A program made the position numbers and the translations under genes. Shown piece after piece: positions 12,162 through 36,321 of a DNA stretch of 37,717 nucleotides. The notes beneath the pieces are model-generated. The model searched no databases. It was not told the DNA's origin and saw nothing but the letters and a program-made list of their open reading frames with translations. This DNA comes from a virus. The stretch covers positions 1-37,717 of the IMG/VR virus record IMGVR_UViG_3300034375_007853; one strand, 5' to 3'. Numbering within the stretch: the first letter of the stretch is position 1; every line of letters starts with the position of its first letter.

Positions 12162-13559
12162 ATGAATATAAATCTTGAACAAACAATTTTAAAGAATATG
12201 CTTACAGATGAAAAGTATATGCGCAAAGTATTACCTTTTATCAAACCTGATTATTTTGAAGGTGTATATCGACAATTGTTCAAAGAAGCTGGCAAATTTG
12301 TTGCTAAGTACAATAAACTCCCTAATCTTGAAACGTTTAAAATAGAAATAGATGAATCTACTGCATTTAGTGAAGAGCACTATAAACATGCAATTGAAAT
12401 ACTACCACTCATTTTTGAATCAGACAAAACAGATCAAGCTTGGTTAATCGATCAAACTGAGAAATGGTGTCAAGATCGTGCTATTCATAACGCGATCATG
12501 GAATCAATTACGATTATTGATGGTAAGCATCAAAAGCTAACGAAAAATGCTTTACCTGATTTATTAACTAAAGCGTTGGCAGTGTCGTTTGATACCAATG
12601 TTGGTCACGACTACTTAGAAAATGTAGATGAACGATATGATTTTTATCATGAGCAAGAGGATCGGATTCCATTTGATTTGGAATATTTCAATCTGATCAC
12701 AAAGGGAGGGCTACCGAATAAGACCCTCAATATCGTTCTAGCAGGGACTGGCGTAGGTAAATCGTTATTTATGTGCCACTGCGCTGCCAACGTCCTAACA
12801 CAAGGTCGAAATGTTCTTTATATTACCATGGAAATGGCAGAGGAACGTATCGCTGAAAGAATAGATGCTAACTTACTTGATATACCTATCAGTCAAATTG
12901 AAAATCTTGCAAAAGATGACTATACCAATAGAGTACAAAACATAGGTCAAAGAACCAATGGTAAACTTATCATCAAAGAATATCCAACAGGTTCAGCAAA
13001 TGTATCTCACTTCAGAGCATTACTCAATGAACTTAAACTAAAGAAAAACTTTATACCTGAAGTTATATTCGTCGATTACCTTAATATTTGTGCTTCATCA
13101 AGAATGAAATCTATCGGAGGTGCAATCAACACGTATTCTTATATCAAAGCAATTGCAGAAGAAATGAGAGGATTAGCAGTTGAATTTAATGTACCTATTA
13201 TGTCTGCTACTCAAACAACAAGAACAGGTTACAGTAGCTCTGATCCAGGTCTTGAGGATACTTCAGAATCTTTCGGTCTGCCTGCTACAGCAGATTTAAT
13301 GTTTGCTATCGTATCCAATGAAGAGTTAGATAGATCTAATCAGATACTAGTAAAACAATTAAAGAATAGATATAATGATCCAACACAATACAAAAGATTT
13401 GTTGTAGGTGTAGATCGATCTAGAATGAAACTAAAGAATATCGTTGACGCAGAAAAAAATCTTGTTAACGATCAGCCTGAAGATACTGGACCTGTATTTG
13501 ATAATAGTAAATATGCAGAACGCCAGAGATCAGATAAATTAAAATCATTAGTGGTATAA
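12162..13559 (+). CDS. 41: Replicative DNA helicase (T4 gp41/DnaB-like)
   Basis: 465 aa hexameric 5'-3' helicase. The N-terminal DnaB-like helical domain covers roughly residues 1-150. The RecA-fold domain has Walker A GTGVGKS (195-201), YITMEMAEERIAERIDANLL (the DnaB H1a/H2 region), Walker B VIFVDYLNI, and a sensor-like MSATQTTR. The short C-terminal tail is poorly conserved. It acts at the fork with polymerase 43 and a primase. Its promoter shares an exact 20-nt block with that of gene 43, so the two are probably co-regulated. Confidence 0.96.
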   Translation: MNINLEQTILKNMLTDEKYMRKVLPFIKPDYFEGVYRQLFKEAGKFVAKYNKLPNLETFKIEIDESTAFSEEHYKHAIEILPLIFESDKTDQAWLIDQTEKWCQDRAIHNAIMESITIIDGKHQKLTKNALPDLLTKALAVSFDTNVGHDYLENVDERYDFYHEQEDRIPFDLEYFNLITKGGLPNKTLNIVLAGTGVGKSLFMCHCAANVLTQGRNVLYITMEMAEERIAERIDANLLDIPISQIENLAKDDYTNRVQNIGQRTNGKLIIKEYPTGSANVSHFRALLNELKLKKNFIPEVIFVDYLNICASSRMKSIGGAINTYSYIKAIAEEMRGLAVEFNVPIMSATQTTRTGYSSSDPGLEDTSESFGLPATADLMFAIVSNEELDRSNQILVKQLKNRYNDPTQYKRFVVGVDRSRMKLKNIVDAEKNLVNDQPEDTGPVFDNSKYAERQRSDKLKSLVV

Positions 13560-17565: not shown

Positions 17566-19635
17566 TTACTTAGTTGTTGCAATAAATGTTCCGTCCCAAT
17601 CTTCTGGTAGATCTTGTGTCTTTTGAAATTCACATCGTTCGATCCACATAGAATAATATCCTCTCATCTGTTGATCGAATGCTGTCTCTAATTTCTTACA
17701 AAGAGCAATTGCTTCATCGAACTTCTGTGCTCTATATAACTCATGCATTTCTTCGTGAGCTACTTGAGCATCATACCATTCTTCCATTTTTTCTTGAGCA
17801 TCAAGTACTGTGTATATTCCTATACCAACTGACTTACCCTTTACAGCTAGGTCATCGACCTTAAGATAAAAGAAATCATCTTTTGTCTTTTGATATGTAG
17901 CATCACCGACTAGTAATAAGCAACCATATTCTTTACATTTAGATTCTATACGTGCTGCTGTCGATACTGAATCACCTAATACATCATAACTATGACGAGA
18001 TGTGGAACCCATCTCACCAAGATAACCTATACCTGTATTGATACCTGCTCCCATGCCAACTGGAGGACGACCTTGTCTTTTTACTTCAATGTTAAATTCT
18101 TCGACTGCTCTTAACATTTCAATACCTGTTTTTACAGCAGAGTAAGCATGATTAGGATCATCGTTTGGAGCGTTATGAACATGCATACTTGCATCACCAA
18201 TATACTTTATAATCATACCATCTGCATTTAATACTGGTTGTGTAATAGCATCCATATAACCATTCATAAGTTTTGTCAGACCTTGTACATCATCACCAAA
18301 TGATTCTCCTAATGGAGTAAAGCCACGTAAATCTGAGAATAGTATTGATATCTCTCTTTTAGTTCCTTTCTTAATAATGTCTGGATTCTCTTGTAACAAT
18401 TTAACAACTGTTGGTGAACAGTAACCTTCAAATTGTTTCTTAATTCTTTCTTTCTCTTTGTATGTTAAATAGTACTTATTAAATGAAGCATGTGCAAAGA
18501 CTAGTAGGGAAGAAATAGCAGAGTAAAATGTATCAAATAGAATAAGGTAATTATTCCAAAGATAGAATCCTGCGTATACTTGTCCCCCAACTAATACACC
18601 TACTCCTATTAAAGCAAACCTTGTCGGTGCTTTCCATGTAACAAATAAAACTTTAAGCATTGCTGATAATAAAACAACTAATGCTAATAAATCATACCAA
18701 TAAGATTTCTTAATGATTGTCTGATTTAAAACAGTTTGTAATAAGTTAGCTTGTACTTCATGTGGGAACATAGCACCAACGGGTGTTGATACTGGGTTAT
18801 TAAATCCTTCAGCTGTTAATCCCCAAATGTAAACCTTACCACCTAAATCTTCTGCAACTAAGTCTGATGCTGATACTCTTGGAAACTCATTCCAATAAGA
18901 TATCAATACGTCACCAGTAGGTGTAGTTGCAAGAGGCGGTTGTCTACCCATTCGTACCCATTCAACTCCGATATCAGGCGTAACTCTTAATTGATATGAT
19001 GTCTCATCAAAGAATGCTCTTATTGTTTCTAGTACTAATGACGGATATAGCTGATCATTTGCATTGACTAGAAGTGGAGCAGATCTTACAGTTGCATCAA
19101 AGTTTGGAGTACCTGGTAGGTTAGGAGTTGCATTTGTTACACCAACACCATAAGTGTTAGCTTGCAAAATCGGAAGAGGTGAAATTATGCCAGGAAAGTT
19201 CCAGACATAGTCAGCCGCTGCACCTCCTCCTAAAGTAGCAGTACCTACAAACGGTGCTAATCCTGTTTGAGTTTGTGTCGTAGGTGCTGCTGCTAGAATA
19301 GATAAACGATTAATCAGAGCTTCAGCGAATATTTCATCGCCTCCGAATCTATCTTCTTCTGAAAAGATTTGAGTAAATACATGAACGTTTGATGGATCTG
19401 TATTCCACATAAGTTCTGCATAAACATCACGTGGCCAAGGATATTGACCATATTGTTCTATTGCTTTCTCATCAATATCAACAAGTACAAAGTCTGGTAC
19501 TTGCTCTATTTCATGTGATTGGTGTAAGTAATCAAACCATGACCATTGTATGTTCTCAACAATGTATGGTGAAGATACTTTAAGACTAAAAAGTAGTATT
19601 ACTGTAACTAGTACTGTCTTCCAACTATACATCAT
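17566..19635 (-). CDS. CHASE2-domain adenylate/guanylate cyclase-like protein
   Basis: 689 aa. An N-terminal helix (about 7-22) precedes an extracytoplasmic CHASE2 sensor (about 28-305, starting FDYLHQS.. and PDFVLVDIDEKAI). Three transmembrane helices (about 315-385) and a class III cyclase domain (about 425-590) follow. Metal-binding D435 (ILFSDLRGF) and D481 (KYIGDASM) are present, as is the adenine-selecting pair K477 and D551 (YDVLGD). The transition-state Arg is R562, but the Asn expected four residues earlier is Ser558 (GDSVSTAARIE). It should therefore bind ATP, but catalysis may be weak. CHASE2 cyclases often pair with FecR-domain proteins in bacteria; a FecR protein is at 35191-36321. 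It overlaps the curlin-like gene by 4 nt and should be co-translated with it. Confidence 0.9.
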   Translation of the reverse strand: MMYSWKTVLVTVILLFSLKVSSPYIVENIQWSWFDYLHQSHEIEQVPDFVLVDIDEKAIEQYGQYPWPRDVYAELMWNTDPSNVHVFTQIFSEEDRFGGDEIFAEALINRLSILAAAPTTQTQTGLAPFVGTATLGGGAAADYVWNFPGIISPLPILQANTYGVGVTNATPNLPGTPNFDATVRSAPLLVNANDQLYPSLVLETIRAFFDETSYQLRVTPDIGVEWVRMGRQPPLATTPTGDVLISYWNEFPRVSASDLVAEDLGGKVYIWGLTAEGFNNPVSTPVGAMFPHEVQANLLQTVLNQTIIKKSYWYDLLALVVLLSAMLKVLFVTWKAPTRFALIGVGVLVGGQVYAGFYLWNNYLILFDTFYSAISSLLVFAHASFNKYYLTYKEKERIKKQFEGYCSPTVVKLLQENPDIIKKGTKREISILFSDLRGFTPLGESFGDDVQGLTKLMNGYMDAITQPVLNADGMIIKYIGDASMHVHNAPNDDPNHAYSAVKTGIEMLRAVEEFNIEVKRQGRPPVGMGAGINTGIGYLGEMGSTSRHSYDVLGDSVSTAARIESKCKEYGCLLLVGDATYQKTKDDFFYLKVDDLAVKGKSVGIGIYTVLDAQEKMEEWYDAQVAHEEMHELYRAQKFDEAIALCKKLETAFDQQMRGYYSMWIERCEFQKTQDLPEDWDGTFIATTK

Positions 19636-20330
19636 TGTCCTTGTGTTACTGATACACTACAACCACCTACAGTATAACAAGTCTGAGATAGTGAATATGA
19701 TTGTGATGTTGTTCCTTGTTGTGTTAAATTTAATGTTGTAGGGTCTGTACCTGAAAGTAAGATGCTTGCTGAATGCTGTGCCCAAGCACCTTTTTGTAAT
19801 ACTGATATATCGTTGTAGTCATTATTTGTTTGTAGACCTATTGTTTTTGCACCATCACCTTGCTGTCTTAACCATATATCATTATAACTACTAAAGATAA
19901 GACTTGTAAATGTATGACCACTAGTGCTTCCCTGATTTGTTTGATGACCTTGCAAATGATTATAATTTCCATGTATGTCTAATCTTGCATAATGTCCGCC
20001 ACCTTCATTACCATCGTCTCCGTATGTCGTAGATGTTGCATTATCCCATGCCGTTCCCTGGGCCCAACGAATAGTATTATCAGTTCCAGATAAATGCCAT
20101 AATTCAATTACGTTATTTGTTCCTGAGCTATTTTCTTGTATTAAAGTTAACTCAACATTATTACCAGAAACGTATGAACTAGTATCGTACATTTTAATTA
20201 TATTATAATCTCCTACCTGTACTACATTTAAATCAAAATAGTTTCCACTTGTTTGTTCGATAGTGATTTCGTTATCTTGTGCCAAAAGAAATGCTGGCAA
20301 TAGAAGTATTGCAAGTAATAGATGTTTCAT
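19632..20330 (-). CDS. Secreted curlin-like repeat protein
   Basis: 232 aa. A clear signal peptide (MKHLLLAILLLPAFLLAQ) is followed by DNEITIEQ and about 200 residues rich in Asn, Gln, Ser, Thr and Gly. Imperfect repeats of the type N-x-I-x-x-x-Q-x-G-x-x-N resemble curlin repeats of CsgA/CsgB. The C-terminus has a Cys pair (SQTCYTVGGCSVSV). The second curlin-like protein (34515-35222) also begins DNEIFIEQ after its signal and also carries two cysteines near its end, so the two are related. It is expressed from the late promoter at 20336-20343 and coupled to the cyclase gene. It is expected to be exported, possibly through the CsgG-like channel. Confidence 0.72.
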   Translation of the reverse strand: MKHLLLAILLLPAFLLAQDNEITIEQTSGNYFDLNVVQVGDYNIIKMYDTSSYVSGNNVELTLIQENSSGTNNVIELWHLSGTDNTIRWAQGTAWDNATSTTYGDDGNEGGGHYARLDIHGNYNHLQGHQTNQGSTSGHTFTSLIFSSYNDIWLRQQGDGAKTIGLQTNNDYNDISVLQKGAWAQHSASILLSGTDPTTLNLTQQGTTSQSYSLSQTCYTVGGCSVSVTQGQ

Positions 20331-25113: not shown

Positions 25114-25461
25114 ATGGCAAAGAAATATACAAAGACACATGAATGGATCGAAGAAGGTAAAGATGGAAAATACTGGGTAGGTATTAGTCAAGTTGCTATT
25201 GAAATGTTAGGTGATGTTGTATATCTTGAAAAAGGTAAAGATGAAGACGATGTTGTAGGAGCAGGTGATGAAGTTATGGTTATTGAATCTGTAAAAGCAG
25301 CATCTGACATTTATGCACCAGTAAATGGTTCTATTCGAGAATTTAATGAAGATCTTATTGCAGAACCTAGTAGCATTACATCAAATGATTGGTTATTTAA
25401 GATGGAAATTGCAGATCCTTTCTTAAATGCTTTAGATGAACTAAGTGACGAAGAAATATGA
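25114..25461 (+). CDS. gcvH: Glycine cleavage system H protein
   Basis: 115 aa lipoyl-carrier protein of the glycine cleavage system. TKTHEWIEEGKDGKYWVGIS, LGDVVYLE, VIESVKAASDIYAPV and a final DWLFKMEI are in family order. The lipoylation site is K61 in ESVKAASD. It is slightly shorter than cellular GcvH (about 128 aa) but complete. P, T and L partners are not encoded nearby, so it must work with host proteins. Glycine cleavage makes methylene-tetrahydrofolate, the one-carbon donor used by gp42 two genes upstream. It overlaps the next gene by 4 nt. Confidence 0.93.
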   Translation: MAKKYTKTHEWIEEGKDGKYWVGISQVAIEMLGDVVYLEKGKDEDDVVGAGDEVMVIESVKAASDIYAPVNGSIREFNEDLIAEPSSITSNDWLFKMEIADPFLNALDELSDEEI

Positions 25462-28040: not shown

Positions 28041-28993
28041 GAGTAATTACAAATCCAACGTATAACATACCTAAACTCAAAACATCTCATGTTTTAGGTT
28101 GGTCTCTTATTTGGTCAGATCAATTAAAAGCAGATATCGATAATAAATGCTCTGATAAAGTTTTACAATATGATGAAATCTTTATTGACCATGGTGTAAA
28201 CTTCAGCGGAGCTCTTAACTTATTTGGTGGTGCAAATAAACAAATATATGATAACATCAATCGTGTATTCTCTCATGCTAATGTTACTTCACTTGATTTT
28301 GATATGCCTGATCTTGGTGCACAATTAAAGTCAAGAGTAAAAGCACCTACCACCTATGAAGGAATAACTGAAGAGTGGTGTGATAAACTATCTGCAAGAT
28401 TAAAGAACGTTCCATCACTAAAACAACAAGAGTTAACTCATTTGTCAGGCGTATCTGTAGGTGATTCACATACATCTGCATTCTCTCGAAAAGATGATGT
28501 AGTACTTAGAACAAATGGTAAAACATTATTTGGCCAATTGAGAAGAGGATTAGAAGAGGATTTCAGAGGTATGACACCAAAAGGAGAAATCACATTCTGT
28601 TATGGTTCTATAGATATAAGACACCACTTATTAAGGCATGATGATAAGTTAGAAGAGCTGATTACAGAATATGTAAAACAAGGCGATAAATTTGGTGATG
28701 TAAAATATGCAGCTCCTGTTCCAGTTGAATACGAAGAAAGAAGATTGCCAAAAACTGGTTATTATAAAGGAACACCATTTTTTGGAACAAGAAAAGAGCG
28801 ATATGATTTAACAATGAGATTTATTGATTTACTAAATAAGAAATCAAACGGCAGAGTTGTAATGCCACCTGAAGATTGGTATTCAATGGATCCAGAAAAA
28901 TATGCTAAGACATATATGGAAAATGGTTCGAGTGTACACATAGCACCACCATATTATCGTAGAAACGATTGGGGAACAACATGTTTAATGTAA
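28037..28993 (+). CDS. SGNH/GDSL-like hydrolase or acyltransferase
   Basis: 318 aa. The block I motif is SVGDSHTSAF with S144 as nucleophile. A GSIDIRHH segment near residue 190 resembles the oxyanion-hole block, and D.......H in the C-terminal region (VHIAPPYY) could supply the rest of the triad. SGNH enzymes hydrolyse or transfer acyl groups. In this cluster it may tailor a substituent on a hypermodified base or sugar. Coupled by 4-nt and 13-nt overlaps to its neighbours. Confidence 0.55.
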   Translation: MRVITNPTYNIPKLKTSHVLGWSLIWSDQLKADIDNKCSDKVLQYDEIFIDHGVNFSGALNLFGGANKQIYDNINRVFSHANVTSLDFDMPDLGAQLKSRVKAPTTYEGITEEWCDKLSARLKNVPSLKQQELTHLSGVSVGDSHTSAFSRKDDVVLRTNGKTLFGQLRRGLEEDFRGMTPKGEITFCYGSIDIRHHLLRHDDKLEELITEYVKQGDKFGDVKYAAPVPVEYEERRLPKTGYYKGTPFFGTRKERYDLTMRFIDLLNKKSNGRVVMPPEDWYSMDPEKYAKTYMENGSSVHIAPPYYRRNDWGTTCLM

Positions 28994-29976
28994 CCACAGA
29001 TACAAGAAACAAAGACATACCAGGAAATATGACAAGAGCTGAAGCTCGTCAATTATACCTTGATATGTGGGGTACATTTAACACCAAATGTCCTCCTCCA
29101 GCAGTACAACACCTTGCTGGAGACAAATATGTGTTAAGAGCAGATTTAGCACCAGGTGGATTAAAAGCGTTTGGTGCAGAAAGAGTTATAGCAGAAACAA
29201 AAGAAGATACGCTTGTATATTGTGCGCCACGCCAAGGTCATGCCCCTGACGCCATAGCAATGTTAGCGGAAATGTATGACAAAAAAGTGGTCTTCTTTTG
29301 TCCTGCTAGCACAACAGTTTCAGATCATCAGGGTTCATTGTTTGCTTATGACCACGTTGATGTAAGATTTATAAAGATAGCAGCCATGCCAGTGTTAAAT
29401 GCTTATGCGAAAGAATGGGCAGAAAGAAACAATGCTAAGTACTTACCATTTGGATTGACTGGTGAAAAGACAGTTACTGCAGGTCTTATTAATATGGCCG
29501 TACATATTGAAAACTCACTTGGAAAACAACCATCACAAATATGGTGTGCAGTATCTACAGGTACAATGATTAGAGCTTTACAGATCGGATGGCCAAATGC
29601 TGAAGCGCATGGAATTGCAGTTGCACGTAACATACATCCAGGAGAAATCGGTGAAGCAAAAGTTATTTCAGCGACTGTACCATTTTTAAAAGCAGATCCT
29701 ATTGCAGAGACAATGCCATTTCCAACAACATCTGCTTATGATGCAAAAGCATGGAAAGGTTTTATAGAACAAGGAAAGAAAGATGCAATATTCATCAATG
29801 TTGGTTCAGACCAGCATATTAATCGAAACTTAGATAAAGTAAACGTCAATGAGATTAATAGTAAACGTGAATGGAAAGATATGGGAGATTTTTTAAAGAA
29901 TCGAGCATACGATAAAGATATTGAAGTAATTAAATTAGACTTAAAAAAGAAAGCTAGCTTAGAGGAGTTTTTATAA
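28981..29976 (+). CDS. PLP-dependent enzyme-like protein (fold type II)
   Basis: 331 aa. YVLRADLAPGGLKAFGAERVIAE, VYCAPRQGHAPDAIAMLAEM, KYLPFGLTGEKTVTAG and IWCAVSTGTMIRAL follow the order found in ACC deaminase/D-cysteine desulfhydrase-type enzymes (PLP lysine, SN-like region, glycine-rich phosphate loop). The likely Schiff-base lysine is in GGLKAFG. The glycine loop is degenerate (STGT). PLP enzymes occur in known thymine-hypermodification pathways, where they act on the attached amino acid. Start at ATG 28981, because an in-frame TTG at 28969 lacks support. Confidence 0.5.
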   Translation: MFNVTTDTRNKDIPGNMTRAEARQLYLDMWGTFNTKCPPPAVQHLAGDKYVLRADLAPGGLKAFGAERVIAETKEDTLVYCAPRQGHAPDAIAMLAEMYDKKVVFFCPASTTVSDHQGSLFAYDHVDVRFIKIAAMPVLNAYAKEWAERNNAKYLPFGLTGEKTVTAGLINMAVHIENSLGKQPSQIWCAVSTGTMIRALQIGWPNAEAHGIAVARNIHPGEIGEAKVISATVPFLKADPIAETMPFPTTSAYDAKAWKGFIEQGKKDAIFINVGSDQHINRNLDKVNVNEINSKREWKDMGDFLKNRAYDKDIEVIKLDLKKKASLEEFL

Positions 29977-30997: not shown

Positions 30998-31154
30998 TGA
31001 AAGAGAATCTCTAATTAAATATTGCGAAGGATTATACTTCGAATTATTTGGTACACACCATGATTTTAGTTCTTATACACAAGAGGAACTAAGAGAGAAT
31101 GCTTATATATTAGAAGAAGGAATTAGTGGTAGTCAGTATAACCAGGATCATTAA
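30972..31154 (+). CDS. Small acidic protein, unknown
   Basis: 60 aa, starting MGHTGSILDERESLI, soluble and acidic. The 3' end overlaps the convergent CoxS-like gene by 32 nt. Not recognised. Confidence 0.45.
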   Translation: MGHTGSILDERESLIKYCEGLYFELFGTHHDFSSYTQEELRENAYILEEGISGSQYNQDH

Positions 31155-31614
31155 ATCTTATTCTTTTAGCGGCTAATTCAATAGCTTCAATAATCTTTGT
31201 GTAACCTGTACATCTACATAAATTACCTGCTAAATGGTTTCTTATTTCTCCTCGTGTAGGATAAGGATTATCATCTAGTAATTTCTTTGCCATCATCAAC
31301 ATACCTGTACCACAGAAGCCACATTGTAAAGAACCTAATTCTTCGAAAGCTTCTTGTAATGGGTGTAATTGATGATTATTTGCCAGACCTTCGATCGTCT
31401 GTACTTCTGAACCGTTAGCTTTGACTGCTAACATAATACATGAGTTAACTACTTCACCGTCGACTATAACCGTACAGGTACCGCAGTCTCCCACGTCGCA
31501 TCCCAACTTGGCACCAGTGAGGTCTAAATATTCTCTTAGAAATTTTAAGAGCGTAGTCTCTGGTGGCACGTCGGCAGAACGTTTCTGTCCATTTACCCGA
31601 ATTTCTACCTGCAT
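31123..31614 (-). CDS. 2Fe-2S iron-sulfur protein, CoxS/xanthine dehydrogenase small-subunit type
   Basis: 163 aa, full family length. The plant-type ferredoxin domain binds one cluster through C39, C44, C47 and C59 (GCDVGDCGTC...NSC). The C-terminal helical domain binds the second through C98, C101, C133 and C135 (LQCGFCGTGM and NLCRCTGYTK). All eight ligands are present. In cells this subunit passes electrons from a molybdenum-cofactor large subunit (CO, xanthine, aldehyde or nicotinate dehydrogenases) to a flavoprotein. Neither partner is in the window. The start codon overlaps the stop of the upstream methyltransferase (TAATG), so it belongs to a late phage operon. Its base composition looks somewhat more GC-rich than its surroundings. 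Confidence 0.93.
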   Translation of the reverse strand: MQVEIRVNGQKRSADVPPETTLLKFLREYLDLTGAKLGCDVGDCGTCTVIVDGEVVNSCIMLAVKANGSEVQTIEGLANNHQLHPLQEAFEELGSLQCGFCGTGMLMMAKKLLDDNPYPTRGEIRNHLAGNLCRCTGYTKIIEAIELAAKRIRFNDPGYTDYH

Positions 31615-32243
31615 TAATCAGAAGCAACGACCATGGCAAAAGGTTTCATTTTTCCTGAACATGTAGTTAAAGAAGTTTGAATGCCTGAGCCATCGACGTT
31701 TTTAAATAAAGGCTTAATGAAATTAACAAATTCAGCATGCGATCTCCAACGGTTTTGTAATGGGTGGTGGTCTTCGTAGATATGATCAGGTCGACCAACT
31801 CTACTTGTAAAAATCCATTTCTTTGCAAACTGTTTATAGTGATTTATCATACGAACAGGATCTTTAATATATTCTAAAACTTCTACACATAGACCTACTT
31901 CCCATTGCTTTCTTTCTGCACTAGCTGGAAGTGGTTGTCCACCCTTTGCTCTGTACTGCCATAGATCAAGTAGATCAAAATCTAAATCATGTTGTAACAT
32001 ACATTTTTTATTGAGATCTATTGAAAAATAGTCTTCGTTATGTTTAGCATATTTTTTAATAAATTCGTTTCCAGCACCAAGATCAAGCATTGAACAATTA
32101 TGAGGAATCTTAGTAGTAATCGTATCGTATATTTCACCCCATCGTGCAGACTCTTTCCACTGTTCTGGAAAAAAATGTTCTTTAAAAGCTCTAGAGCATA
32201 ATCTTATTACATTTTGAGGAACATACGTTGGTGAGTATGACAT
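31614..32243 (-). CDS. SAM-dependent methyltransferase-like protein (paralogue B)
   Basis: 209 aa. Motif I is CSMLDLGAGNEFI, followed by YFSIDLNKK (acidic end of strand 2) and a VGLCVEVLEYIKDP segment of Methyltransf_11 type. It shares WEVGLCVEVLEYIKDPVRMI.HYKQFAKKWIFTSR with the equivalent part of the next protein upstream in the operon, so the two are paralogues. A good AGGAG lies before the ATG. Substrate unknown; sugars, lipids or virion proteins are possible. Confidence 0.68.
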   Translation of the reverse strand: MSYSPTYVPQNVIRLCSRAFKEHFFPEQWKESARWGEIYDTITTKIPHNCSMLDLGAGNEFIKKYAKHNEDYFSIDLNKKCMLQHDLDFDLLDLWQYRAKGGQPLPASAERKQWEVGLCVEVLEYIKDPVRMINHYKQFAKKWIFTSRVGRPDHIYEDHHPLQNRWRSHAEFVNFIKPLFKNVDGSGIQTSLTTCSGKMKPFAMVVASD

Positions 32244-32253
32244 AATTTATCTC

Positions 32254-32901
32254 CTATGGTGTACAAACACCAATCAAAAATGGTTTTGGAAATCCTGTTC
32301 CATAAGTTACAATATCTGTAAAGATTACATCACTTACAGTTACGCTTGTAAAATGCTCATTTAAGAATACTATCCATTCGTCTCTTGTCCAACCATTTTT
32401 AAAAGTCAGTCGACTTTCTCTGAAAGCTATGTTTTCTTCAGTTATAGGTCTAATTGTTAAAACCCAATTTGTTGCATACTGTTTATAATGATCTAATAAT
32501 CTACCTGGATCTTCAATGAATTGAAGTACTTCTACAAGAAGACCAATATCCCACGTCCTATCAAAAGTAAGAAGAGATCCATCTAAATCGTGAACCTCAT
32601 CTGCTGCAGGATTTACGTCAACACCATGATAATCAGTACAAGTAATTGCATTGAGTATATCTTTGTCTCCACAACCTAAGTCAAGTATTGATGAACCACT
32701 TGGAACATAATCTGCAACATCAGTGTGAATTGCTCTCCATCTATCTTTGATGCTATGCATGCTAGCTAGTTTTGATTTATAATCGGAATCTACAGAACTT
32801 GCTGTCCAATCTTTTGATAGTATATTGTTATCACTATCAAGTGTTAAACCGTTTGCTCTTATAGTTTCAAATTCTGTAGTGAATGTAGATTTATCTGTCA
32901 T
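32254..32901 (-). CDS. SAM-dependent methyltransferase-like protein (paralogue A)
   Basis: 215 aa. Motif I is SILDLGCGDKDIL, then YHGVDVNPAADEVHD, then WDIGLLVEVLQFIEDPGRLL. It heads the minus-strand late operon methyltransferase A - methyltransferase B - CoxS. The TATAAATA late promoter ends 7 nt upstream, without a Shine-Dalgarno. Confidence 0.68.
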   Translation of the reverse strand: MTDKSTFTTEFETIRANGLTLDSDNNILSKDWTASSVDSDYKSKLASMHSIKDRWRAIHTDVADYVPSGSSILDLGCGDKDILNAITCTDYHGVDVNPAADEVHDLDGSLLTFDRTWDIGLLVEVLQFIEDPGRLLDHYKQYATNWVLTIRPITEENIAFRESRLTFKNGWTRDEWIVFLNEHFTSVTVSDVIFTDIVTYGTGFPKPFLIGVCTP

Positions 32902-32908
32902 AATAATT

Positions 32909-32916
32909 TATTTATA
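32909..32916 (-). promoter_or_regulatory. Late promoter TATAAATA (minus strand)
   Basis: TATTTATA on the plus strand. It drives the methyltransferase-CoxS operon, whose ATG is at 32901. It is divergent from the csg late promoter 32 nt away. Confidence 0.75.
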
Positions 32917-32948
32917 CAAATCAAATCTTTGTTTTAAACCATTTTACA

Positions 32949-32956
32949 TATAAATA
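32949..32956 (+). promoter_or_regulatory. Late promoter TATAAATA of the csg operon
   Basis: Exact late box 24 nt before the csgF-like ATG at 32981. It is followed by GGAG at 32971-32974, so this transcript has a normal short leader, unlike most late genes here. Confidence 0.78.
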
Positions 32957-32980
32957 GTTAAAAGCAATATGGAGTAGATT

Positions 32981-33466
32981 ATGCGCTTTGCACTTATACT
33001 AATGTTAGTATGCAATGTGGCGTTGGCAGATACAATTACGTTTGGATTTAAGAATCCATCGTTCAGTGGTGTTGGTCAAGGTTCACACTATCTTACTGTA
33101 GAAAATCAAGAATCATCAAGAGAAAAAGCAATTCAAGATGCACTTGATGCTGCAGAACGAGCAGCACAAAGAGAAGAGGATAACTCAACTCTTGCTAAGT
33201 TTATTCGTAACCTTGAGTCAAGAATTTATGCTCAGTTATCAAAGACTTTAGTCGAGCAAATGTTTGCAAACGAGGATCCAGTATTGTTTGGTAGTTTCGT
33301 ATTAGAAGGTTCAACTGTCTCATACGAAGTAGTTACAAATGACGACTTAACCCAGTCAATTGTTCTGATCATAGTAGATCCTGAGGGTTCACAAACTTCA
33401 ATTGAGATTCCTATTGGTACGGGTAACTTTGGTATGACATACGACGCAATTAATGGAGCACCCTAA
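32981..33466 (+). CDS. csgF: Curli assembly protein CsgF-like
   Basis: 161 aa. A signal peptide (MRFALILMLVCNVALAD) is followed by the CsgF N-terminal signature TITFGFKNPSFSGVGQGSH. In E. coli this segment (TMTFQFRNPNFGGNP) inserts into the CsgG channel. The remainder is an alanine/glutamate-rich helix and a C-terminal beta domain (QTSIEIPIGT...), again CsgF-like. CsgF caps the CsgG pore and links it to curlin nucleation at the cell surface. First gene of the plus-strand operon; its stop overlaps the next start (TAATG). Confidence 0.9.
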   Translation: MRFALILMLVCNVALADTITFGFKNPSFSGVGQGSHYLTVENQESSREKAIQDALDAAERAAQREEDNSTLAKFIRNLESRIYAQLSKTLVEQMFANEDPVLFGSFVLEGSTVSYEVVTNDDLTQSIVLIIVDPEGSQTSIEIPIGTGNFGMTYDAINGAP

Positions 33467-33648
33467 TGGCAATTAAACTTGGAGAATCAGTAAGAGAACG
33501 AGGTAAAAGATTTTTATGGAAACATGATTATCTTAAAACACATTCAACAAAATCTTTACTTGAGAAATATGAATCATTAAATACGATACCAAAGGTGAAA
33601 CAAAAAGTAAGGAATGAACTAGTACGGAGACATGCGTTATCTACTTAG
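33466..33648 (+). CDS. Small basic protein between csgF and csgG
   Basis: 60 aa, strongly basic, helical, no signal or membrane helix (MAIKLGESVRERGKRFLW ...). GGAG precedes the ATG. It overlaps both csg genes, by 1 and 17 nt. Function unknown; cytoplasmic location is expected. Confidence 0.6.
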   Translation: MAIKLGESVRERGKRFLWKHDYLKTHSTKSLLEKYESLNTIPKVKQKVRNELVRRHALST

Positions 33649-34531
33649 TACAGTAGTATTATTTCTTGTAGGATGTTCTGGAATACCTCAATATACTGAA
33701 ACACCTCTTGACTGTGATCCTTATATCGAAAGAGAAAGAACTCTTGGAGAAGCAATTACATCGATACCGAATGCGGTAAGATCGACACTTCCTCTTGTGT
33801 GTAACGATGAGCCAGAGATTATAGAACTTCCATCGTATGTACAGCTACTCAATCTACCACCAGCAGAACAAATGCCTATCGTTGCTGTTTATAGCTTTAC
33901 AGATCAAACAGGACAAAGAAGATCTGTAGAAAATATTGCATCATTCTCTACAGCAGTAACTCAAGGTGGTACAGCATTATTAATTGATGCTTTAAAATCA
34001 GCTGGAGGAGGTAGCTGGTTTCGAGTTGTAGAGAGACAAGGATTAGATAATCTTGTACGAGAAAGACAGATTATAAGAAGTACAAGAGAAGAGTATGCAG
34101 GTGTCAATTCAGAAGCGCTAAACCCACTTTTATTTGCAGGAATGATTATTGAAGGTGGTATTATTGGATATGACACAAATATTGAAACAGGAGGACGTGG
34201 TGCACGTACTCTTGGAATTGGCGTCAGTACAGAATATCGTAAAGACGTCGTTACGATTTCACTTAGAGCCGTGTCGGTTCTAACTGGAGAGATTATATTA
34301 AACGTCCAATCCCGAAAAACTGTATTCTCATTCGGAGGAGGCGGTGATTTGTTCCGATTCATTGAAGATGGAACACAACTATTAGAGTATGAGGACGGAG
34401 TAGGTATGAATGAGCCAGTAACATATGCTGTTCGTACCGCAATAGAGGCCGCAGTATTGGCTCTTATTCGTCAAGGTGACCAAAGAGGATACTGGACTAT
34501 AACAGGAGAAAACAATGAAGAAAATATTTAG
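33632..34531 (+). CDS. csgG: Curli secretion channel CsgG-like lipoprotein
   Basis: 299 aa outer-membrane lipoprotein pore of the type VIII (curli) secretion system. Lipobox LFLVGC with lipidated C15. Family blocks are LLNLPPAEQ, VAVYSFTDQTGQ, NIASFSTAVTQGGTALLIDAL, RVVERQGLDNLVRERQIIR, MIIEGGIIGYDTNIETGG, GARTLGIG, YRKDVVTISLRAVSVLTGEI and FRFIEDG. Compared with E. coli, F56 of the constriction is kept (F105) but N55 is replaced by Ser and the Y51 region differs. About 50 additional N-terminal residues with two cysteines precede the core. All strands of the barrel insert appear present, so a functional pore is expected. Confidence 0.93.
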   Translation: MRYLLSTVVLFLVGCSGIPQYTETPLDCDPYIERERTLGEAITSIPNAVRSTLPLVCNDEPEIIELPSYVQLLNLPPAEQMPIVAVYSFTDQTGQRRSVENIASFSTAVTQGGTALLIDALKSAGGGSWFRVVERQGLDNLVRERQIIRSTREEYAGVNSEALNPLLFAGMIIEGGIIGYDTNIETGGRGARTLGIGVSTEYRKDVVTISLRAVSVLTGEIILNVQSRKTVFSFGGGGDLFRFIEDGTQLLEYEDGVGMNEPVTYAVRTAIEAAVLALIRQGDQRGYWTITGENNEENI

Positions 34532-35222
34532 CGCGCTTATCTTCATGTTACTTTCTGTCTCAGTATTCGCTCAGTCTGATGACAATGAAATATTCATTGA
34601 ACAATCGGGTGATACACTAACTCTGTATATAGAACAAGATGGTGAAGGAAACAAAGTCGGAGGAAACGATTTCACTGGTACAGCGACCGATATGGTCATT
34701 ACTGGTGCAAATCTTACTTTTGATATCGATCAAATAGGTAATAACAACCTATTGTTTGGTACATTGACCTCAGCTTCCTCTACCTACAACCTTCTTTTTA
34801 CAGGTGACTCTAACAGCCTTGACTGGTTGATTGGAGACCTCGGCACAGCTGAGACTACTACTTTTGATTTAGACATCACAGGTAGTTCGAACACTATAGA
34901 TTTTGACCAAGGATCTGTTGCCAATGCAGATTATCTAGATTTAGATCTAGCTGTCATTGGTTCTTCAAACGTCTTTGATATAGACGTTGAAGGTACAAAC
35001 AGTATTTGGAACTTTGATATTACTGGAGGCAGTAGTAACATTAACACTGAACAATCTGATGGGTCTGACCACGAAATCAATCTGATTCTCGATGGCGACA
35101 CTGCAGATATTGATATTACACAGACAAATGGTACTTGTCCTGTAGCTGCAAGCTGCTCAAGTGTCGTGAATCTCGATGTAACTTCTGACAATGCAACAAT
35201 TCAGATACTTCAGGAAGACTAG
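34515..35222 (+). CDS. Secreted curlin-like repeat protein (second copy)
   Basis: 235 aa. Signal peptide MKKIFSALIFMLLSVSVFAQ, then SDDNEIFIEQSGDTLTLYIEQ. Imperfect strand-turn repeats rich in Asp, Ser, Thr, Asn and Gly follow, such as FDIDQIGNNN, LDITGSSNTIDFDQ and FDIDVEGTNS. The protein is more acidic than E. coli CsgA. Two Cys (CPVAASC) lie near the C-terminus, as in the minus-strand copy. It is placed directly behind csgG with AGGAG at its start, the classical position for a substrate of the secretion channel. Amyloid formation is plausible but unproven. Confidence 0.75.
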   Translation: MKKIFSALIFMLLSVSVFAQSDDNEIFIEQSGDTLTLYIEQDGEGNKVGGNDFTGTATDMVITGANLTFDIDQIGNNNLLFGTLTSASSTYNLLFTGDSNSLDWLIGDLGTAETTTFDLDITGSSNTIDFDQGSVANADYLDLDLAVIGSSNVFDIDVEGTNSIWNFDITGGSSNINTEQSDGSDHEINLILDGDTADIDITQTNGTCPVAASCSSVVNLDVTSDNATIQILQED

Positions 35223-36321
35223 CCTTATAATTATAAGCCTAATGATGGGGTCGGCCTACACACAGACCGATCCCATCGGCGAAATCATCGAATCAACAGG
35301 GATTGGCTCTATTCTCAGAGACAACAACCCATTAGAACCCACCGTTTCCACTTCAATACAGCTCTATGATGAGGCTCAGACAGGAAATGGCCGTATGTTG
35401 ATTGAATTTTTAGATAACGAAGAGCTTTCGTTAACAGAACAGACCAAAGTATACATCGACGAGGTCTATTACGATCCCAATCCAGACCTATCCCGAATGA
35501 CAATGCGATTTGCAAGAGGTACAGCAAGATTTGCATCAGGTACAGGAGGCAGGATCAATAAAGCAAACGTAGAATTAACCACTCCGACAGCTCAAATCGC
35601 TATCCGAGGCACAGATTTTACCACTACAGTGGACGAGTTAGGACGCTCCCTGATCATGCTGTTACCAGACGAGGATGGAAATGCATCTGGAGAGATCGAT
35701 GTCATCAATGAAGGTGGTACTGTCACGCTGAATGAGGCATTTTCTGCCACGATGGTGTCTTCAATTGCCTCTACACCTACGACACCCGTCGTTGTACAGG
35801 ACCTGACCCCATCTCTGATCGATAATATGTTTATTGTATCTCCTCCGCAGGAAGTACGTGATCGAATAGAAGAAGAAATGAACGAAGATGCCAACGAAGA
35901 CAGTGGAATCCTTGATGTCGACTTCCTCGAATACAACGAATTAGAGTCTGACGACCTTGAAGATACTACTGAAGATTTCTCTTACAGTGAGTTAGATATC
36001 AATCTACTCGATGTCGATTTTCTTACCGACCTCCTCGATATCATCGAGGCCCTCGACGCGACGATGGTCAGAGATGAGCCTCAACAAACAGATGATTTTT
36101 CTGTACAGTTACGTGGCGCGGTTATGGGAACAAATACAGACAGCCAATATAACATCTTTACAGAAGATAATATGATCGTCTTCTATCGTAATGTCAATGG
36201 AACCATTCGGCTTACCCTTGCCTCCAATGCCAATGTCACAATTGAAACAAGAGTTGAAGGTTATGAAGGTATCATAGACCTGAATGAAGGATCCAATTCC
36301 TTTATACAAATCATACAGTAG
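35191..36321 (+). CDS. FecR-domain secreted protein
   Basis: 376 aa. A signal peptide of about 25 residues (RKTSLIIISLMMGSAYT) is followed by a FecR domain (about 28-170): IGEIIESTGIGSILRDNN, GRMLIEFLDNEELSLTEQTKVYIDE, and TPTAQIAIRGTDFTTTVD, the end of the family. The C-terminal half is very acidic (NELESDDLEDTTEDF) with a final beta segment. FecR-domain proteins with CHASE2 cyclases are a recurring pair in bacteria. It overlaps the curlin-like gene by 32 nt and has no Shine-Dalgarno, so it is probably coupled. Codon and base use look richer in G+C than the rest of the window. Confidence 0.85.
   Translation: MQQFRYFRKTSLIIISLMMGSAYTQTDPIGEIIESTGIGSILRDNNPLEPTVSTSIQLYDEAQTGNGRMLIEFLDNEELSLTEQTKVYIDEVYYDPNPDLSRMTMRFARGTARFASGTGGRINKANVELTTPTAQIAIRGTDFTTTVDELGRSLIMLLPDEDGNASGEIDVINEGGTVTLNEAFSATMVSSIASTPTTPVVVQDLTPSLIDNMFIVSPPQEVRDRIEEEMNEDANEDSGILDVDFLEYNELESDDLEDTTEDFSYSELDINLLDVDFLTDLLDIIEALDATMVRDEPQQTDDFSVQLRGAVMGTNTDSQYNIFTEDNMIVFYRNVNGTIRLTLASNANVTIETRVEGYEGIIDLNEGSNSFIQIIQ

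Follow-up and report, generated by a model that had tools for sequence, protein, structure and literature searches.

In molybdenum (Mo) hydroxylases the small subunit (S) has two [2Fe-2S] clusters, by which electrons pass from the Mo site to FAD. Genes for one subunit of a multi-subunit host enzyme are known from phages, amoC, pmoC and dsrC among them. Another, fwdF, for an iron-sulfur subunit of formylmethanofuran dehydrogenase, is one of the viral genes in PMC10904782. Nicotinate dehydrogenase is a four-subunit enzyme with a split Mo subunit, and its gene make-up is given as NdhF, NdhS, NdhL and NdhM in PMC10331938. Here we describe a phage gene for a predicted S subunit of this type. Like the single-subunit auxiliary metabolic genes it represents, on a virus, one subunit of a multi-subunit host enzyme; in contrast to nicotinate dehydrogenase, the phage has S alone. 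We found no description of a phage-borne Mo-hydroxylase S subunit in a literature search aimed at it, the coverage of which left most subscription papers outside.

Phage record and operon structure

The sequence analysed (hereafter the window) is an IMG/VR virus record of 37,717 bases. By its DNA polymerase it comes closest to Phage C48C1 (54% identity), a phage listed under Kyanoviridae, and on this basis we assign the record to a T4-like phage, as a fragment of its genome; C48C1, the nearest complete relative, measures 156 kb. No tRNA genes, sought as a clue to the host, were found in the record. The features of the S locus are given in Table 1.

Table 1. Features of the S operon and its upstream region.
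Feature	Position	Strand	Basis
S subunit, two [2Fe-2S] clusters, split-L Mo hydroxylase type (predicted), orphan, 163 aa	31123..31614	-	ORF, Pfam, cysteines, paralogue match, model
mt2, methyltransferase-like protein	31614..32243	-	weak UbiG match below cut-off; TAATG overlap with S gene
mt1, MetW/Methyltransf_23-like methyltransferase, first operon gene	32254..32901	-	ORF list, Pfam
TATAAATA late-promoter-like box, 7 bases before mt1 ATG	32909..32916	-	box scan
Divergent TATAAATA box, 24 bases before csgF; neighbour, outside S operon	32949..32956	+	box scan

The S gene is the last of three minus-strand genes in a row, following mt1 and mt2. It overlaps mt2 in a TAATG, and the same overlap occurs in L005, an IMG/VR contig of a related phage, which supports the translational coupling to a methyltransferase proposed in an earlier note on this DNA. 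The late promoter proposed there has its counterpart in the TATAAATA box ahead of mt1, and in L005, too, a box closely precedes the mt1 ATG. Ten TATAAATA boxes are present in the window, an unremarkable number (5.9 expected; ten reached in 9 of 100 shuffles). Counting only ATGs that open a frame of at least 77 aa, six of the boxes precede an ATG by 4-7 bases and a seventh does so by 24. Because the boxes are placed before genes, and because one stands upstream of mt1 in L005 too, the sequence argues for their being late promoters. The six close boxes, at 13555(+), 16054(+), 36331(+), 20343(-), 21548(-) and 32916(-), precede frames of 77-254 aa, and late messages from them would have little or no leader if transcription begins at the customary distance.

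The two methyltransferases differ strongly between the window and L005, with protein identities of 47% and 56% and dS values of 1.63 (mt1) and 1.76 (mt2). In alignment blocks of 100 columns the identity is 0.46-0.74 over the methyltransferases and 0.84-1.00 on either side. The divergent block covers approximately 31600-32960 of the window and 1853-3130 of L005, its borders falling in the promoter region and near the S start. From this alignment, the two methyltransferases were replaced as a block between otherwise closely similar phages, with S and the TAATG overlap retained. A counterpart of mt1 was not found in the phage collection that we searched, and mt2 gave no match in the 22 genomes of the closest cellular family, a search in which an empty result carries no weight.

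Elsewhere in the window, a seemingly orphan GcvH-like lipoyl-domain protein (25114-25461, plus strand; 102 bits, below the curated cut-off of 117) would likewise be a small carrier component of a host enzyme with several parts. A PLP-enzyme-like gene (28969-29976, plus strand; PHROG 'threonine dehydratase') has a different open frame in its place in L005 (4770-5528).

Sequence and predicted fold of the S protein

The S frame starts with ATG and has no internal stop. Its product contains a Fer2 domain (41.8 bits, cut-off 21) followed by Fer2_2 (102.4 bits, cut-off 30.3) and eight cysteines, the arrangement of the S subunit of xanthine-oxidase-family Mo hydroxylases. All eight cluster cysteines, reported as intact in the earlier note, are indeed in place (39, 44, 47, 59, 98, 101, 133 and 135). 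Eleven NCBIfam models match the protein and none reaches its cut-off; therefore it is claimed by no named enzyme. A stand-alone plant-type ferredoxin, with its single Fer2 domain, was ruled out by the second domain (Fer2_2, 102 bits).

Using AlphaFold with 40 sequences we obtained a model with a pLDDT of 91.5, which replaced an earlier one built on 13 sequences (pLDDT 61). The two-domain S-subunit fold is present in the predicted structure, which matches S chains of CO dehydrogenase (CODH) with a TM to query of 0.90-0.91 and that of nicotinate dehydrogenase with 0.90. CoxS/CutS of aerobic CODH (1FFU, 1N5W, 8UEM) are the best-scoring solved matches in both sequence and fold and are alike in two-cluster architecture. 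NdhS of the Eubacterium barkeri nicotinate dehydrogenase (3HRD chain D), about 45% identical to the phage protein, would have the same S fold according to the model (TM 0.90/0.92). Among the viral models of BFVD no match was obtained at E<=0.001.

Comparison with bacterial operons

A scan of genome contigs gave 219 relatives of the phage S protein, of which the best 80 were kept; the closest of these is 78% identical, and searches within one class (369 genomes), one order (296) and one family (22) gave no relative above 77%. Among the best 80 of 219, a flavin gene lies directly upstream of S in every locus, L1 is present in 79 and L2 in 72, and in the missing cases the coordinates run off the locus end. 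L1 and L2 are fused in one locus (L072), and in several L1 lies one to two kilobases further downstream. The L1 motif AMRGFG was found in all 18 loci inspected of these 80, and neither AYxCSFR nor AYRGxGR, which we take to be the CODH forms of L, in any of them. Among solved structures, chains A and B of nicotinate dehydrogenase (3HRD) are the best relatives for L1 and L2. Judged by these features, the nearest cellular genes belong to FAD-S-L1-L2 operons with a split Mo subunit, a four-gene make-up like that of NdhF, NdhS, NdhL and NdhM in PMC10331938.

CO dehydrogenase was rejected as the partner on account of the L1 motifs, by which the 18 orthologous operons inspected differ from it. The description 'CoxS-type' in the earlier note thus holds only if taken broadly, for the small subunit of any Mo hydroxylase, and is too loose beyond that, since none of these 18 operons has the CODH motif. 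Of the host counterparts listed there (CO, xanthine or aldehyde dehydrogenase), what stands is a host Mo hydroxylase, which would be of the split-L, nicotinate-dehydrogenase-like kind and not CO dehydrogenase.

Seven bacterial genomes together hold 39 S-type matches. In each genome one of them shares 71-77% identity with the phage protein, and the remaining 32 do not exceed 51%, a pattern that shows orthology with the S of FAD-S-L1-L2 operons and not with other S paralogues. In the bacterial family of the closest relative, matches at E<=1e-60 are limited to 9 of the 22 genomes. A tree of 82 rows groups the two phage sequences (support 100/100) and attaches them, by a stem 0.67 long, to an unresolved fork that also holds marine gammaproteobacterial rows; this does not single out a donor, and the transfer does not look recent. 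Recent acquisition is disfavoured by this long stem and by the G+C of the S gene, which at 0.394 falls within the range over 17 genes measured (0.315-0.436).

The cellular operons often have permeases as neighbours, of the lactate-permease type in L008 and of the sodium:solute symporter type in L014, and also an HMGL-like enzyme and a zinc alcohol dehydrogenase. These neighbours hint at an organic acid as the substrate of the cellular enzyme.

Distribution among phages and absence of partner genes

The S gene is present in four other IMG/VR contigs. Three of them (L002, L003 and L004) represent the same phage, with 99.4-99.7% DNA identity and an identical S gene, and L005 represents a relative in which S is 96% identical and in the same place. 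The gene is accordingly found in a related phage, as the earlier note had suggested checking, and a chimeric assembly, also raised there, was ruled out by the same position of S in the three same-phage contigs and in L005. Considering protein, alignment and motif scans of IMG/VR, the last of which asks for the precise codons of GNLCRCTGY and would overlook variants, S was seen only in these four contigs, together with a chance match, L180, that was rejected as a carrier (GNLCRCTGY out of frame within a phage tail-type gene; S profile only 14 bits). Within IMG/VR, an orphan Mo-hydroxylase S subunit was thus seen in this phage group only. The neighbourhoods of 77 other csgF loci, many of them short, contained S in no case (E<=1e-3) and the methyltransferases in none (E<=1e-5).

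The phage collection yielded 13 records with an S-like match, of which 12 were examined (H10, a near twin of H9, was left out). An L-type subunit adjoins the match in 11 of the 12, and the twelfth record ends 31 bases past it; therefore these records look like bacterial operons, not orphans. Several of the records H1-H13 hold xanthine-dehydrogenase-type operons of bacteria and are likely host DNA or prophage flanks.

Between the window and L005 the S gene shows 13 synonymous and 6 non-synonymous codon changes, and its dN/dS of 0.108 compares with 0.082 for csgF, 0.039 for csgG and 0.074 for the DUF3310 gene. The S gene is under purifying selection. It is a metabolic gene of host type, its surroundings are truly those of a phage and related phages have kept it, so that it can be classed as an auxiliary metabolic gene.

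S subunits of this family are encoded together with flavin and Mo subunits, which was not seen for the phage gene in about 47 kb of phage sequence. The PF02738 profile gave no match and no large subunit in the window, phmmer with the cellular flavin (M), L1 and L2 subunits gave no match in the window or in L002-L005 (E<=0.1), and no partner subunit was found in L214, which reaches approximately 7 kb beyond L002 on the right. The lack of flavin and Mo subunit genes, stated in the earlier note for the window, thus extends over the ~47 kb. A scan of IMG/VR for L1 by exact patterns gave no relative. Although the record is a genome fragment, it is unlikely that the partner subunits lie elsewhere in the phage genome.

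Conserved and changed residues

To describe the S type at residue level we used 11 marker columns, defined on 79 orthologues (L085 was left out for its long branch) versus 20 of the 32 other paralogues. The phage protein keeps 10 of the 11 marker residues and the 20 paralogues 0-2. Their conservation might reflect the needs of the S-type fold and not docking, two roles that the sequence comparison does not separate. Of 40 columns invariant in the 80 cellular relatives (best 80 of 219) the phage protein keeps 39. Among the 87 columns that do not vary in 11 marine relatives, 80 are unchanged in the phage, compared with 46-59 in the paralogues.

The seven changed residues are E10Q, S55V, L60I, P103T, S108M, D126N and A127H; in L005, positions 10 and 126 retain E and D, leaving five changes common to both phages. 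Among the best 80 of 219 cellular relatives, position 103 is P in 79, and position 127 is A in 75 and G in 5. Both positions lie near the ligands of the C-terminal cluster. Some paralogues have S, A or N at 103 and one has H at 127, and therefore the phage changes there need not break function.

Possible roles of the phage S subunit

The simplest reading is that S works in a host enzyme, because it is complete and constrained, corresponds to a single cellular paralogue and lacks a partner among the viral genes. We give a little less than an even chance to its being an auxiliary metabolic gene that supplies an exchangeable S subunit to a split-L Mo hydroxylase of the host. The phage would make a complete, cluster-bearing S subunit late in infection, which would take the place of the host S in a four-part FAD-S-L1-L2 enzyme, nicotinate-dehydrogenase-like, and would use its two [2Fe-2S] clusters to hand electrons on from the Mo site to the flavin subunit of the host. 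The enzyme could thereby be kept running while host proteins are no longer made. We infer three things here: a host equipped with the enzyme, assembly of the subunits, and electron flow. Counted against supply are operon mates with no evident link to such an enzyme, the occurrence of the gene in one small phage group only, the 9 of 22 family genomes with a match, P103T and A127H, and the 7 of 87 marine-invariant residues changed. Since the match to one particular paralogue indicates the likely partner, an exchange of subunits by virus and host is directly testable with four cellular genes and one phage gene, and it would help to identify an uncharacterised marine enzyme through what a phage finds worth taking.

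A more specific proposal, which we consider rather doubtful, is that S is an exchangeable relay subunit that docks into one specific host Mo hydroxylase and redirects its electrons via the residues around the C-terminal cluster. If true, a virus would steer a host redox enzyme by swapping one subunit. Supply, competition and rewiring look the same at the level of sequence. The changes S55V, L60I, P103T, S108M and A127H, common to both phages and made at positions that are invariant in the 11 marine relatives, would fit a phage S that pushes out the host S and slows, stops or diverts electron flow in the host enzyme by means of its altered residues around the C-terminal cluster; yet both cysteine sets are kept, although a plain blocker could do without intact clusters, and functional-looking paralogues also vary at 103 and 127, making this unlikely.

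It is quite unlikely that S is a stand-alone two-cluster carrier serving, in phage or host, some redox enzyme that is not a Mo hydroxylase. Its clusters are conserved and no partner genes were found in the ~47 kb, but a free carrier would not obviously need the 10 of 11 S-type markers. The earlier note had also offered electron supply to oxygenases, which finds no support: 2OG oxygenases take electrons from 2-oxoglutarate itself, so that the 2OG oxygenase and JmjC-type genes present here need no such donor, and S keeps residues specific to its partner type.

The late-promoter-like box, the operon in common with methyltransferases and the persistence of S while these were exchanged could also reflect a repurposed late protein, a virion part or a factor acting together with the methyltransferases, retaining the old fold and clusters. 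This is distinctly improbable, as the partner-type markers are kept, no link between methyltransferases and S is seen, and the methyltransferase sequences changed wholesale beside an unchanged S. A neutral passenger without function, which the narrow distribution would allow, is very improbable given a dN/dS close to those of csgF and the DUF3310 gene and given that gene and overlap were kept through the block exchange of their neighbours. A complete viral enzyme with its other subunits in the unsequenced part of a larger genome (156 kb in C48C1, the nearest complete relative) is also very improbable, because S does not lie beside M as it does in all 80 cellular relatives (best 80 of 219) and the L1 pattern scan of IMG/VR found no relative.

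Curli-type genes of the window

Beyond the divergent box lies a curli-type module (32981-36321, plus strand) with CsgF, CsgG, a curlin-like protein recognised by eye and FecR. Its second part lies elsewhere (17566-20330, minus strand) and encodes a CHASE2 nucleotidyl cyclase together with another curlin-like protein. Curli modules have already been published for pelagiphages (PMC9599517); PMC9004378 and PMC7029224 were also consulted on curli modules in phages. In the 77 other csgF loci, many of them cut short, the genes stand in one row (csgG in 76, curlin-like in 70, fecR in 64, second curlin-like in 48, cyclase in 43), whereas in the window the module is split in two.
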